Origin: Gemmatimonadota bacterium
GTDB taxonomy: Bacteria > Gemmatimonadota > Gemmatimonadetes > Gemmatimonadales > Gemmatimonadaceae
Direction: 5' to 3'
DNA: 33,756 nt
NCBI GenBank assembly: GCA_021324635.1
Contig: JAJPIS010000034.1
Location: 1 to 33,756, forward strand
Part shown: positions 18,129 through 33,756 of the stretch, one piece after another
Layout of the letters: each line of letters opens with the position of its first letter
How positions within the stretch are numbered: the stretch's first letter is position 1
Notes under the pieces: model-generated
Databases searched by the model: none
Told to the model about the DNA's origin: nothing
The model's input: only the letters and a program-made list of their open reading frames with translations
Made by a program: the position numbers and the translations under genes

Positions 18129-18566
18129 TCAGTCCGCGCGCTCGTAGACGGCGCGCGTCCAGCGGCGGACGGTGTCCCGCAACTCGTCGGCGACCCGCGC
18201 CGGCACGGCGCCCGCCAACGTGCGTCGGACGACGGCGTTGATCGCGGTCACGATCTCGCCGACGTGCGCGCCCTGTGCGCGCAGCTCGTGGACGTACGAC
18301 ACCACCGCCTCGCGCAACCTGGCGCGCGCCTCGGCGTGATCGAGCTGCGTCGAGTGGGGCCGGACCACCTCCGCCACCGCCTGCGCCATCGACCGCTGCC
18401 GGGCGGCCGGCACGAGCGGCGGCGGGGAGTCGGCCGCCGCGGGGTCCGGCGGGAGGGGGGCGGAGGAGAGGGGGAGGGGGAGGGGGGAAGGGGGAGGGTG
18501 AGGGGAAGACGTGTGGGCCGGCGATGACGGGGAGGAGGAGCGCGGTTCGGGGCGCTGCATGTGCAT
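18129..18566 (-). CDS. Small unknown protein, family member A
   Basis: Not a family I can name. From ATG 18566, chosen because GAGG lies six bases upstream, it has 145 residues; ATG 18590 is an alternative. Residues about 5-50 are a Pro/Ser-rich disordered stretch encoded by a pyrimidine-rich tract. The C-terminal ~90 residues are helical: LREAVVSYVHELRAQGAHVG, EIVTAINAVVRR and a last helix LRDTVRRWTRAVYERAD. This C-terminal layout (LRxxG, about four residues, E-x-IV, then a final W...Y helix) matches the two small proteins at 25782-26255 and 26243-26650, so the three look like paralogues. No signal peptide or membrane span is seen. Confidence 0.72.
   Translation of the reverse strand: MHMQRPEPRSSSPSSPAHTSSPHPPPSPLPLPLSSAPLPPDPAAADSPPPLVPAARQRSMAQAVAEVVRPHSTQLDHAEARARLREAVVSYVHELRAQGAHVGEIVTAINAVVRRTLAGAVPARVADELRDTVRRWTRAVYERAD
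18451..18506 (+). other. G-tract cluster with G-quadruplex potential
   Basis: The plus strand carries a run of closely spaced G tracts of four to six bases separated by single A or short AAG/CGGA spacers. This easily satisfies a four-tract quadruplex pattern. It lies on the strand opposite the coding strand of member A, inside its Pro/Ser-rich segment. Structure formation is inferred, not shown. Confidence 0.45.
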
Positions 18567-21072: not shown

Positions 21073-23079
<2,007 letters not shown>

Positions 23080-23347
23080 CGCTCGATGTCGCGGCAACGC
23101 GGACGGGCCGAGGACACGGAGGACACGGCGTGCGAGATCACGGAAGGTCGGGAGTGAACGGGTGCGGAGCGCCCTCGAGCGTGCCGGGCGCGGAGCGCCA
23201 TGAACGTATACAAAGCCGCCTGCCAGTGCACCCCGCGCACCATGGTCGGCCATCGCCCTGCCACGGACCGGCCCGGACGCGTCCCGCTTCCAGGGCGCCT
23301 CACGGCGTCGGCTGGCAGGCTCCGCGACCGGCGGCCATCCTTCGAGC
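23080..23347. other. Divergent region between two kinase genes
   Basis: This 268-bp spacer separates the divergent kinases. The only AT-rich patch is GTATAC at about 23206-23211, extended as CGTATACAAAG, which could supply a -10 element on either strand; no -35 box accompanies it. No repeat or small gene was recognised. Confidence 0.35.
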
Positions 23348-25264
23348 GTGGAGCCGTCCAGCGTCACGCGCCCGCGTTCCATCGAGCGAACCCTCCCGCT
23401 CCTGATTTCCGTGCTGCTCCTGGCGGCCGTCGGCGGCTCGACTTGGACCGCCTACGAGCGCGTGCGCGGGGTGCTGGTCTCCGCGGGAGGTGAGCGGCTG
23501 CGGAACGCCTCGTCGGTGACCGCGCTGCTCATGGGGCAGGCGCTGGCGCGGTATCGGAGTGGATTGGCGGCAGCCGCGGCCGACCCGGCGCTCGGGCGCT
23601 ATCTCGCCGACGGCGCGCACGCCCACGCCGCGCGGGTGGCCCTGGCCGCCGCCTGGTCGTTCGACAACGTCCCGCGCACCCGCAGCGAGTTGCGTCGGCG
23701 CGACGGCACCGTCGTCCTCGACACCGCCCGCGGGACCGTACCGCGTGGATCGGGGTGGATCGATCGCGCGATCGATGCCGCGCGGCTCGTGCCGGGGGAA
23801 CCGGCCGTCGGGCCGCTCCACACGGTCGGCGACTCGACGCTCGTCGAGACCATCGTCCCGATCGCCACCCCGGCAGGTCCCGCGCGCGCCGGTGGGTCGG
23901 CCGACGGAGGCATCGCCGGATACCTGAGCGTCGTCGGATTCCTGTCCGTCACCGGCGCGCGGCCGATCCGGGATCTGATCGGCGGACAGGCGACGGTGCT
24001 CATGGGATCGCCCGCCGAAGGCGACTGGACCACCCTCGAGAGACCCGCGGCGCCGCCGTCGGCCCGCGTGGAGCCGGGTCGCCCCGTCGTCTTCGCCGGC
24101 GCGACCGGCGGCACGCGCATCGGTGCCGCCTCGCTGATCGTCGGGACGCCCTGGGCGCTGTGGGTGGAGCAGCCGCTGGACGTCGTGCTCGCGCCGATGC
24201 ACGAGCTGCTGGGGCAGATGATGGCGGTGGCAGGGCTGTTCGTACTCGTCGCGGTCGGGGGCGCCTGGGTCATCAGTCGGCAGATCACCAGCCCGCTGGT
24301 CGCCCTCACCGAGGCCGCCGAGCAGGTCGCGCGGGCCGAGCCACGCATCGCGCCCGCCGGCGGCCAGGGCGACGAGATCGAGCGTCTGACGGACGCGTTC
24401 CGCCGGATGGCGAGGCGGGTGCACGACTCGCTCGCCATCGCCGAGGCGGCGCGTGCCGACGCCGAGTCGTCGAATCAGGCCAAGGGTGTTTTCCTGGCGA
24501 CCATCTCGCACGAGCTCCGCACGCCCCTCAATGCCATCACCGGCTACGCGGCCCTGTTGGAGGATGGGATCCGCGGCGCACTGTCGCACGAGCAGGCCAA
24601 TGATGTCGGGCGCATCCGCCGTGCGGCGCAGCACCTCCTCGGCCTCATCACCGACCTGCTGGACTTCGCCAAACTGGAAGCCGGAGAAGTGCGCGTCGGG
24701 ATCATGGACGTGCCGGTGCAAGTCGCGCTGGCCGAGGCGGCGACGATGGTGGATCCGCAGGCGCGGGCCAAGCAACTGACCGTCGAGTGTCAGCCCGTCG
24801 CTCCCGGCCTCGCCGCCCGCGCTGATCGCGACAAGGTACTCCAGATCCTGCTCAACCTCCTGTCGAACGCGATCAAGTTCACGCGCGCGGGGGGCCGGGT
24901 CGTGATGAGCGCCGCTGCGGCCGACGAGCAGGTCCGGATCGTGGTCCGCGATACCGGGCGGGGCATCGCCCGGGATCAGCTCGCGCGCGTCTTCGATCCG
25001 TTCGTGCAGGTCGGACGACGGCTGGCGGCACCTGGCGAGGGAGGGGTGGGCCTCGGACTGGCGATCAGTCGCGAGCTCGCCCAGGTGATGGGCGGCACGC
25101 TGACCGTCGACAGCGCGGTGGGCGAGGGCTCGACGTTCGTGCTGACGCTCCCCCGGGGCGCCGGCGGGGTCGAGCCCCCTCAGGGGGGGACGGTGGCACT
25201 CGCGAGCTCCAGCGCGCGCAGGATGCGCTCGGCCTTGTCCGGCCCCGGCACCGAGAGCGGCTGA
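23348..25264 (+). CDS. HAMP-type sensor histidine kinase
   Basis: A 638-residue membrane kinase starting at GTG 23348. First membrane span about 14-32, then an extracytoplasmic region of about 250 residues that may be a Cache/PAS-like sensor (it includes RRRDGTVVLDTARGTV and a later GTPWALWVEQPL segment). Second span about 291-309, HAMP about 310-362, HisKA with His388 in ATISHELRTPLNA, and an ATPase domain with NLLSNAIKFT, DTGRGIA and GVGLGLAISRELA. The catalytic fold ends near FVLTLP. The last ~30 residues are low-complexity and overlap the 3' end of the convergent relaxase-like gene. No response regulator is adjacent; its divergent neighbour is a paralogue in the kinase core. Confidence 0.93.
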   Translation: MEPSSVTRPRSIERTLPLLISVLLLAAVGGSTWTAYERVRGVLVSAGGERLRNASSVTALLMGQALARYRSGLAAAAADPALGRYLADGAHAHAARVALAAAWSFDNVPRTRSELRRRDGTVVLDTARGTVPRGSGWIDRAIDAARLVPGEPAVGPLHTVGDSTLVETIVPIATPAGPARAGGSADGGIAGYLSVVGFLSVTGARPIRDLIGGQATVLMGSPAEGDWTTLERPAAPPSARVEPGRPVVFAGATGGTRIGAASLIVGTPWALWVEQPLDVVLAPMHELLGQMMAVAGLFVLVAVGGAWVISRQITSPLVALTEAAEQVARAEPRIAPAGGQGDEIERLTDAFRRMARRVHDSLAIAEAARADAESSNQAKGVFLATISHELRTPLNAITGYAALLEDGIRGALSHEQANDVGRIRRAAQHLLGLITDLLDFAKLEAGEVRVGIMDVPVQVALAEAATMVDPQARAKQLTVECQPVAPGLAARADRDKVLQILLNLLSNAIKFTRAGGRVVMSAAAADEQVRIVVRDTGRGIARDQLARVFDPFVQVGRRLAAPGEGGVGLGLAISRELAQVMGGTLTVDSAVGEGSTFVLTLPRGAGGVEPPQGGTVALASSSARRMRSALSGPGTESG

Positions 25265-25674
25265 TCCCAGGCATCGACGCGGGCGGCAATGAGGTGCAGG
25301 CAATCGCCCTCCGCCCCCCGCGCTGCCTCCGCCCCGGCGCGCCGCACGAGCACGTAGGCCGCCGAGCCGAAGCCCAGGCGCTCGGCGTAGAGCTGCCCGA
25401 TGGTCGCCCAGTCGGCGTCGCCCAGCACCTCGCCGTCGGACGCGGCCAACGAGACGTGGTACACGGCCTCCCGATGACAGGGCCGCGCGAGTTCCCGGGC
25501 CGTGAACTCGCGTTCGAGCGCCTCGATCGTCCGCCCCAGCATTGTCCCGCCGACGACGGCGCCCTCGGGCGGCAGCCCTGGCTCACCGCCGCGACCGCGA
25601 CTGGCGGGGCCCCAGCCGAACGCGGCCCGGAGCGCCTTTCGCACCGTTCGCGATGTTTCGATGGTCAGTTGCAT
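25180..25674 (-). CDS. Degenerate relaxase-like domain protein
   Basis: A 164-residue protein that resembles part of the MobA/VirD2-type relaxase domain (nicking enzymes of plasmid transfer). Matching blocks: GGTMLGRTIEALEREFTA, VYHVSLAASDGEVLGDADWA, TIGQLYAERLGFGSAAYVLV and DCLHLIAARVD, which parallel the relaxase order (NxxG, YHxSLS..GE.L.D..W, Y...GFG...Y..VRH, HxHIVA.RV). The usual histidine cluster is degraded: C-L-H replaces H-x-H and RR replaces the RH before it, and no N-terminal catalytic tyrosine motif is evident. It is therefore probably not an active nickase. ATG 25674 has GAGG upstream. The 3' end overlaps the convergent kinase gene by 85 bp. It sits beside two small unknown proteins. 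Assignment by eye only. Confidence 0.6.
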   Translation of the reverse strand: MQLTIETSRTVRKALRAAFGWGPASRGRGGEPGLPPEGAVVGGTMLGRTIEALEREFTARELARPCHREAVYHVSLAASDGEVLGDADWATIGQLYAERLGFGSAAYVLVRRAGAEAARGAEGDCLHLIAARVDAWDQPLSVPGPDKAERILRALELASATVPP

Positions 25675-25781: not shown

Positions 25782-26255
25782 ATGCCCCTCGACAATCCAA
25801 GCCTGTCACAGACCGACCGGCGCCGGCCGCAGCAGGGTCCCGAACGGGCCGCGCGTGGCGCACTGGTCGCGCGCATCCACGCAGCCCTGGATCGTGCGAC
25901 GCAGTCGGCGGCGGAACACCTCGACCGCCCGTCCTCCCTCGCGGAGCTCGAGGCGGACCTCGTGCGGCTGCACCGCGAGACCGCCGAGCGCCGCCTCGCG
26001 CTTCAGGACTCGGTCAGGGCCCTGGGGCTGGCCCTGCGCCAGGAAGGCATCCAGCCGGAGCGCCTCGTTCCGGTCCTCCGGGACGCCCTGGGTGAGGCCG
26101 GCGTCGAAGCGCACGCGACCGTCGCCCCGCTTCCGCTCGCCGCGGACGCACTGCGGTGGGGGATCGAAGGATACTACGGGGAGGGTACCGGCGCGGGCGC
26201 CGAGGGCGCGCGCGGCGCCGGCGCGATCCGACCGGACGGCCCTCAGTCGCCGTAG
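25782..26255 (+). CDS. Small unknown protein, family member B
   Basis: A 157-residue protein of unrecognised family, from ATG 25782 with AGGA upstream. It is mostly helical: an Arg/Gln-rich start, then LVARIHAALDRATQSAAEHL, LAELEADLVRLHRETAERRL, DSVRALGLALRQEGIQP and ERLVPVLRDALGEAG, ending with LRWGIEGYYGEG. The last ~25 residues are Gly/Ala-rich. The LRQEG-IQPERLV segment and the W-x-IEGYYG end match the convergent member C (LRECG-VPPEHIV, W-x-IEGYYGD) and, less exactly, member A. The gene is divergent from the relaxase-like gene with about 107 bases between starts. No signal peptide, membrane span or catalytic motif is seen. Confidence 0.75.
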   Translation: MPLDNPSLSQTDRRRPQQGPERAARGALVARIHAALDRATQSAAEHLDRPSSLAELEADLVRLHRETAERRLALQDSVRALGLALRQEGIQPERLVPVLRDALGEAGVEAHATVAPLPLAADALRWGIEGYYGEGTGAGAEGARGAGAIRPDGPQSP

Positions 26256-26266
26256 TAACCTTCGAT
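26163..26266. repeat. 16-bp inverted repeat at convergent gene ends
   Basis: ATCGAAGGATACTACG (26163-26178) is repeated in inverted orientation at 26251-26266 with one mismatch and a 72-bp spacer. Both arms encode the shared IEGYY signature of the convergent members B and C. The symmetry could come from inverted duplication of an ancestral gene and could fold as a 3'-end hairpin in either transcript. Confidence 0.75.
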
Positions 26267-26650
26267 CGTCCAGGTCACGATCTCGGCCTCGAGCTGGCGG
26301 CGATCCTTGAGCGCCGCCAGCATCGCGGCCGACTCGAGGACCGAGCGAACGCACGGGACGATATGCTCCGGGGGCACGCCGCACTCGCGCAGGTACGCCC
26401 CGAAGGCGTGGAGCTCCTCGCGGAGCCGCGCCCGGTCGGCCAGGGCGTCCGCGAGTCGACCCTCGTATCGCGACGCGAGATGGCGGTGGAGGGCGTCATC
26501 GGTCCACGCCTGATCGCGCTCACGCGTGACGCGCCCCAGCGCCGCCTGGCTTTCGGCCGCCTCCTCGATGGCGTCGGACAGCTCGGCCGGCGCCTGCGGA
26601 CAGGGTGAGGAGAGGGATGAGTGGCGCGAGGCGCCCGGAGTAGTGGACAT
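26243..26650 (-). CDS. Small unknown protein, family member C
   Basis: A 135-residue helical protein from ATG 26650, with GGTGG as a possible ribosome-binding site. It contains PAELSDAIEEAAESQAALGR, a long charged helix (LASRYEGRLADALADRARLR), EELHAFGAYLRECGVPPEHI, VPCVRSVLESA and the final IVTWTIEGYYGD. The C-terminal ~65 residues parallel member B block by block, indicating paralogy. The stop codon overlaps the end of member B by 13 bases in convergent orientation. It lies divergent from the amino-acid permease, starting 80 bases away. Function unknown; the coiled, charged character would fit a protein-interaction or DNA-associated role, but nothing in the sequence decides this. Confidence 0.76.
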   Translation of the reverse strand: MSTTPGASRHSSLSSPCPQAPAELSDAIEEAAESQAALGRVTRERDQAWTDDALHRHLASRYEGRLADALADRARLREELHAFGAYLRECGVPPEHIVPCVRSVLESAAMLAALKDRRQLEAEIVTWTIEGYYGD

Positions 26651-26730: not shown

Positions 26731-28143
26731 GTGGCCCATGGCTCGTCAACCGAGGAGACCGGCCGCGACGGCCTCGTCCGTATACTCGGCCTGCCGGCGA
26801 TGGTGGCCAACGCCGTCAACGTCATCGTCGCCTCCGGCATCTTCGTTCTGCCAGCCGCGGTGGCGGCGATCGTCGGCCGATCCTGGCTCGTCGCGTATCT
26901 GATCTGTAGCGCCATCACGGCGCTGGTCCTGCTGTCGCTCGCAGAAGCGGGCAGCCGCGTCTCGGAGACCGGTGGGACCTATCGCTACGTCCAGGTTGCG
27001 TTCGGCCCGTTCGCCGGGGCGTTATTGGGGGTCGTGCTCCTGTTCAGCAGTGTCGCCTCGAACGCCGCGGTGGCGGTGGTGTTCGCGGAGACGGTCGGCG
27101 AGGCGGCGCCGGCGCTGAGCGGCGGACTCGCGCGCGCGGTGGTGCTCGGCGTCATGTTCGTCGCCCTCGCGGCCATCAATGTCCGGGGCGTGCGGGTCGG
27201 GGCGCGATTCGTCGAAGTCGTGACGGCGGCCAAGCTCGCGCCGTTGCTGCTGCTCATCGTGGCCGGCGTCGTCGCCATGCACTCGGCGGGATCCGTTGCG
27301 GGAGGACCGGGTGCGGGAGCGGCTCTCCCCGCGGCTGTCTCCGCGAGCGACATCGGACGGGCCGCGCTCGTTCTCTTCTTCGCGTTCACCGGGATCGAAG
27401 TGGCGCTCACCCCGTCGGGCGAGTTCGCGAACCCGGCGCGAACGGTCCCGCGCGCCGTGCTGATCGCGCTGGTGATCGTCACCGTCGTGTACATCGGCGT
27501 GCATCTGGTCGCGCAGGATATCCTGGGCGCCGACCTGGCGCGCGATCAGACCGCGCCCCTCGCGGCGACGGCGGGTCGTCTCTTCGGGCCGCGGGGCCGC
27601 GCGCTGATGCTCGCGGCCGCGGCTCTCTCGACTTTTTCGTACGTGGGCGGCGACATCCTCGCCTCACCGCGCATGCTCTTCGCATTCGCGCGTGACGAGT
27701 ATCTCCCGGCGCCGATGGGCGCGGTACACGGCCGCTACCGCACGCCGCACCTCGCCATCATCATCTACACGGCGCTCGCCGCGGTCCTCGCCCTGAGCGG
27801 CACGTTCCGCGTGCTCGCGGCGCTGGCCGCCATCGCGGCCCTCCTCATCTATCTCGCGTGTTGTCTGGCCGTGATCCAGCTCCGGCGTCGCCGCGTGGGC
27901 AGCGCGGGGGATCCGTTCCTCGTGCCGGCCGGGCCGGTGGTCCCGGTGCTGGCGTGCCTCATCATGCTCTGGCTGCTCTCGCACGCCTCGCGCGGCGAAT
28001 GGGCGACGATCGGCGTCGTGCTCGCCATCGGGGTCGGTCTCTACCTCGCCCGAGCCGGTCGGATGCGCCGGCGGGCGGGACGAGCCGTCGAGCTGGAGGC
28101 TGCCGCAGAGGAGCCGAGCCGCAACCCGGCCCCGCTCCTCTGA
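26731..28143 (+). CDS. APC-superfamily amino-acid permease
   Basis: A 470-residue membrane transporter with about twelve hydrophobic spans. The first span carries the substrate-binding unwound motif ASGIFVLP, equivalent to the GSGIF of amino-acid/polyamine/organocation permeases. Further family segments are AEAGSRVSETGGTYRYVQVA, AINVRGVRVGARFVEVVTAA, FFAFTGIEVALTPSGEFANP (with ARTVPRAVLIAL next), and DILASPRMLFAFARDEYLPA. GTG 26731 has AGG about nine bases upstream and directly precedes the similarity. The C-terminal cytoplasmic tail is short and charged. It probably imports amino acids by proton or cation coupling; the specific substrate cannot be told. Confidence 0.92.
   Translation: MAHGSSTEETGRDGLVRILGLPAMVANAVNVIVASGIFVLPAAVAAIVGRSWLVAYLICSAITALVLLSLAEAGSRVSETGGTYRYVQVAFGPFAGALLGVVLLFSSVASNAAVAVVFAETVGEAAPALSGGLARAVVLGVMFVALAAINVRGVRVGARFVEVVTAAKLAPLLLLIVAGVVAMHSAGSVAGGPGAGAALPAAVSASDIGRAALVLFFAFTGIEVALTPSGEFANPARTVPRAVLIALVIVTVVYIGVHLVAQDILGADLARDQTAPLAATAGRLFGPRGRALMLAAAALSTFSYVGGDILASPRMLFAFARDEYLPAPMGAVHGRYRTPHLAIIIYTALAAVLALSGTFRVLAALAAIAALLIYLACCLAVIQLRRRRVGSAGDPFLVPAGPVVPVLACLIMLWLLSHASRGEWATIGVVLAIGVGLYLARAGRMRRRAGRAVELEAAAEEPSRNPAPLL

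Positions 28144-32966: not shown

Positions 32967-33756
<790 letters not shown>

Follow-up and report, generated by a model that had tools for sequence, protein, structure and literature searches.

The RsbU_N domain, a four-helix bundle, forms dimers and associates with a partner protein (PMC12143880), and KaiA couples a pseudo-receiver to such a helical bundle (PMC11372060). RsbU_N (PF08673) is located N-terminal to a PP2C phosphatase, whereas the bundle of KaiA is C-terminal and associated with a receiver-like domain. The stressosome protein RsbR and globin-like sensors (PDB 3zta, 3pmc) are other all-helical signalling domains, and NCBIfam NF046112 describes a small three-helix bundle dimerization domain. 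Here we describe a family of helical domains that is expanded inside the Gemmatimonadaceae and essentially confined there. The family domain resembles RsbU_N in being, by prediction, a small helical bundle; however, it is C-terminal, and occurs in stand-alone proteins or fused to another small domain. Like the C-terminal domain of KaiA, it is a predicted C-terminal helical bundle, which in some members has a receiver-like gene next to it, but fusion to a receiver was not seen. Its predicted helix packing is comparable to that of the stressosome and globin-like domains; nevertheless, the structural match to these is weak and there is no sequence match. One member of the family matches NF046112 at E 0.059; however, the score of 13.7 bits is well under the 25-bit cut-off.

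Three members of the family, named A, B, and C, are encoded in the analysed window, which is the entire 33,756-nucleotide contig JAJPIS010000034.1 (C43) of a Gemmatimonadota genome of 4.09 Mb in 127 contigs (GCA_021324635.1). Loci matching the MAGs Centralia_MAG_331, palsa_1248, and LS_FP_2_bin.53 place the genus in the Gemmatimonadaceae. The features of the window discussed here are:

18129–18566, minus strand: member A, distant; family domain approximately 18153–18326; start uncertain, with the gene caller preferring 18389
25180–25674, minus strand: stand-alone relaxase-like protein, 164 residues; partial match to PF03432 (MobA/VirD2) at 2.2e-7, above the cut-off
25782–26255, plus strand: member B, 157 residues; family domain approximately 25986–26201, followed by a 23-residue tail
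26157–26272, no strand: imperfect inverted repeat with arms 26157–26182 and 26247–26272
26243–26255, no strand: tail-to-tail overlap of B and C, 13 bases, with both stop codons within it
26243–26650, minus strand: member C, 135 residues; family domain 26246–26446 at the extreme C terminus
26731–28143, plus strand: amino-acid permease of the APC type, divergent from C

Elsewhere in the window, positions 21076–25261 contain two kinase-like genes with 5′ ends that overlap head to head (23348–23382); the gene on the plus strand has HisKA and HATPase_c matches, and the other was judged by eye. A 14-bp unit is repeated in 11.4 tandem copies at 2414–2572, just past an open reading frame that appears AraC-like by eye. 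The end of the contig contains a run of 93 C (33662–33754), which translates as the long poly-glycine beginning of an open frame and is probably an assembly artefact.

Proteins B and C are 38% identical over approximately 85 residues on the C-terminal side (BLASTP E 1e-11) and have the sequence W-x-IEGYYG(E/D) in common. The sequence-only reading had proposed this shared C-terminal end, a 13-base tail-to-tail overlap of the two genes, and an inverted repeat formed by their signatures; the similarity was borne out, the overlap is exact, and the repeat is real, with 26-nucleotide arms that are 85% complementary. Such a repeat is expected where both strands carry codons for one and the same peptide, here W-x-IEGYYG. 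The RNA of the repeat stretch folds better than shuffled sequences (z −3.3), and a pattern scan identified no terminator-like site there. Protein C is closer to a copy from contig C58 and to one copy from a sister species than to B. Since B and C are not mutual closest relatives, they did not arise by a recent inverted duplication. At the sister-species loci that were inspected, the B–C pair had no counterpart. A second tail-to-tail arrangement in the genome of the window, at L104:5897-6567 (G000:C92), consists of a member and a weak candidate (E 0.0013) that are separated by 18 bp.

The similarity of A to the other two proteins is weak in pairwise comparison with C (E 0.006) and not significant with B (E 0.46). 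A profile of 25 members that does not include A nevertheless retrieves it from its own genome at E 4.5e-4, and a member encoded by a sister species shares 37% identity with A over 59 residues (E 2.9e-7 among the members). Therefore, A, previously suggested as a third copy, is a distant member. Proteins with a C-terminal domain of approximately 65 residues detected by a profile at E ≤ 1e-3 were counted as members; B and C score within this limit, and so does A with the profile that lacks it.

A search of the genome of the window with C as the query revealed additional copies. A seven-copy profile, from one row of which a loop insertion was cut for the search, detected approximately 13 copies there, among them A (E 0.004), and had matches in 13 of 31 genomes, with the genome of the window counted among both. 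With a 57-row profile, approximately 15 dispersed copies were found in the genome of the window, and 55 of 395 sampled genomes of the phylum were positive. The positive genomes include 51 from the Gemmatimonadaceae, which contain from one to at least 15 matches each, and one genome has 18 matches to a 25-row profile; because the phylum searches scored 15 or 20 candidates per genome, the high counts are minimum values. The remaining four genomes belong to other families and have weak matches (E 8e-5 to 4e-4), which are unproven as real members. When 85k species were scanned with a DNA pattern, three loci were returned, all from Gemmatimonadetes; the pattern recovers 16 of 94 known loci, and because of this low recall the scan does not prove absence elsewhere. 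A search for related loci with a five-row alignment was negative in both genome and viral contigs. Expansion of the family in one lineage, as the sequence-only reading had anticipated, is thus confirmed by the profile search and per-genome copy counts that it had proposed as a check; its three copies were an understatement. The family also proved to lack a known name: searches of Pfam, NCBIfam, PHROGs, and the PDB gave nothing significant for its members. Sequence searches of the PDB with family profiles returned designed helical proteins and matches at chance level, the best of them to the chain DBS1 (E 0.0024), and no papers on such a family from Gemmatimonadota were found within the terms searched.

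The DNA of the window has a high GC content and is rich in spurious open reading frames, which raises the alternative that the members are chance frames with merely compositional similarity. However, profile E values reach 1e-25 across genomes, the domain is anchored at the C terminus, and several member loci show conserved synteny among the three species of the genus. A member is located between genes for beta-ketoacyl-ACP synthase III and RNase II in L107, L111, and L117, and next to one for ketopantoate reductase in L105, L113, and L120. The dN/dS ratios of orthologous or otherwise close pairs are 0.01–0.27 in 11 of 12 pairs and 0.52 in the most diverged one; dS is near saturation in several pairs, and the values are approximate. 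The orthologues at conserved loci are mostly under purifying selection, and they are therefore real genes. Selection and conservation together already refute the reading as chance frames, and we regard its probability as negligible. Separately, of the members at G018:C2:2580676-2580869 and G006:C15:22516-22719, one is split over two frames and one has an in-frame TGA; these may be pseudogenes or the result of sequencing errors.

The family domain of approximately 65 residues is C-terminal and has the pattern LRxxVxx..LRxxGxxPERxLxxxK … VVxWxIxAYY. It consists of the helix LRxxVxx..LRxxG, the helix PPERxLxxxK, a variable loop, and the helix VVxWxIxAYY. In 59 aligned cores, the most conserved positions are L (0.78), R (0.75), G (0.75), P (0.80), and E (0.73), followed by K (0.63), W (0.69), Y (0.83), and Y/F, and there are no conserved residues of a catalytic type. 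The part ahead of the domain is variable, and in C it includes a long predicted helix. Approximately half of 67 members end at most four residues past the domain, called member lengths are 71–203 residues with two exceptions, and a transmembrane-like segment is present in one of the members that were checked. A role in dimerisation and partner binding is most likely, because there is no catalytic-looking pattern and almost no member looks membrane-bound.

Some members occur with a second, likewise small and unnamed domain that has the pattern W.VRE...RRvW.yP.nW.eLsd. It forms a fusion with the members L148_5 and L155_5, adjoins a member in L134, and is located two genes away from one in L121 and L143. 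The sites of this domain are:

L134:5536-5763: second domain, adjoining a member
L121:5091-5288: second domain, two genes from a member
L148:5950-6519: second domain, fused to a member
L155:5957-6529: second domain, fused to a member

The AlphaFold2 model of C, calculated with few homologues, is all-helical (pLDDT 76.7, pTM 0.56), and that of a short member, likewise based on few homologues, contains four helices (pLDDT 78.8, pTM 0.70). Foldseek returned no match at E ≤ 0.001. A second structure aligner gave Z values of up to 7.6, with designed helical proteins on top; RsbR (Z 6.5, rmsd 5.5) and globin-like domains ranked below them. The C-terminal domain of KaiA was recurrent in both fold searches with this aligner (Z 4.3–5.9, rmsd 3.8–5.0). 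RsbU entries were absent among the matches listed, which does not count against RsbU. By the guidance of the aligner, the matches to KaiA, RsbR, and globin-like domains, all with Z below 8, do not demonstrate kinship; helical bundles can reach such values by chance.

The recurrence of KaiA could also indicate that the members are divergent true representatives of the KaiA/RsbU four-helix superfamily, that is, stand-alone RsbU_N or KaiA-C domains that would bind GHKL-type or KaiC-like partners. Comparison by hhalign places the motif PPERxLxxxK of the family in register with PPEEIISIHRK of RsbU, and the score of 20.5 against a two-sequence RsbU profile was equalled in none of 150 column shuffles. 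The RsbU query agrees with PDB 2j6y/2j70. Furthermore, receiver genes adjoin some members, reminiscent of the joining of a receiver-like domain to the bundle in KaiA (PMC11372060). However, the score against a single RsbU sequence is unexceptional (seven of 634 natural protein segments scored as high), and it is no higher with a larger member profile. PF08673 is matched neither by members nor by consensus sequences, it was found in 0 of 298 genomes of the phylum, and its best score elsewhere in the genome of the window is 12.3 bits. The comparison with a single, provisional KaiA sequence was empty (hhalign probability 0.3). Homology to RsbU_N or KaiA was thus not demonstrated by profile, and we consider true membership in their superfamily unlikely. 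The resemblance to RsbU is a lead only; RsbU and KaiA serve as models of how the domain may work, not of its descent.

The genes around members were surveyed at 60 loci and in the window. Most neighbours are unrelated to each other or to signalling and include housekeeping loci, and no partner gene is shared between loci. Receiver-like genes, detected with a profile seeded from a cluster containing two of the neighbours, are nevertheless enriched next to members (11 of 110 adjacent genes vs 17 of 583 non-adjacent, p 0.002), and the enrichment persists after removal of two syntenic repeats (odds ratio 3.0, p 0.012). A Crp/Fnr cluster occurs four times in adjacent and never in non-adjacent positions (p 6e-4); two of the four cases adjoin close paralogues of one genome and are not fully independent. 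A comparison restricted to Pfam has the same direction but is not significant (Response_reg in 5 of 98 vs 2 of 140, p 0.10). Receiver genes start 12 and 9 bp downstream of the members L149_1 and L153_7, respectively. In the neighbour data, no regulator is linked to A, B, or C themselves, and no partner was identified for A and B. Protein C may be functionally linked to the divergent amino-acid permease: C and its closest paralogue in the genome (C58, L105:3246-5331) are each divergent to an APC permease, and the best in-genome match of the permease from the window is that of C58 (34%), narrowly ahead of the next.

This arrangement, together with the commonness of a divergent upstream gene (32 of 98 close neighbours), would also suit small regulators, DNA-binding or nucleoid-associated, whose target would be the divergent gene or their own locus. 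However, members match no helix-turn-helix or other DNA-binding domain, and the conserved W, YY, and PE appear atypical for DNA binding; we therefore hold this function to be improbable.

The start of the relaxase-like gene is 108 bp from B, and the two were previously suggested to belong to an accessory module. The relaxase-like gene was matched in none of 30 relatives, so that of 31 genomes only that of the window has it, and a conserved partner it therefore is not. Nor does a relaxase appear in the family list of 98 neighbours. The proposed module did not withstand the tabulation of neighbours, since members elsewhere adjoin unrelated genes and share no partner across loci. The PF03432 protein next to B, the patchy distribution, and the variable copy number could still point to parts of a module for mobility, defence, or toxin-antitoxin function tied to the relaxase-like gene. 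Several members, however, hold the same locus in all three species of the genus, PADLOC reported only one weak DrmA match, to C (E 0.006), PHROGs gave nothing significant for the members, and the search with the five-row alignment found no relative in viral contigs. Such an origin is highly unlikely.

We tentatively propose, as a possibility slightly short of even, that the members are non-enzymatic dimerising or adaptor modules of signalling proteins. The family domain would be a dimerisation and partner-binding module, and each paralogue would be the adaptor of one particular regulator or sensor, in many cases the product of a neighbouring gene. Candidate partners are a receiver or pseudo-receiver, a Crp/Fnr regulator, or a small HTH-like protein; alternatively, the domain may be fused to another small domain. 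Its use would resemble that of the C-terminal bundle of KaiA or the N-terminal bundle of RsbU, which dimerise and bind a partner; for the family, we infer dimerisation, partner binding, and any regulatory output. It is more doubtful, although conceivable, that the Gemmatimonadaceae have a previously undescribed adaptor layer of stand-alone helical domains, each paired with a different receiver, Crp-type regulator, or transporter. Such a layer would be comparable in role to the KaiA and RsbU bundles, but perhaps not in descent.

An unnamed domain that is amplified to at least 15 copies per genome represents an annotation gap in a common group of soil bacteria. If the members are adaptors, they would constitute an unrecorded regulatory layer, and the operons with single-domain receivers would be the place for testing it directly.
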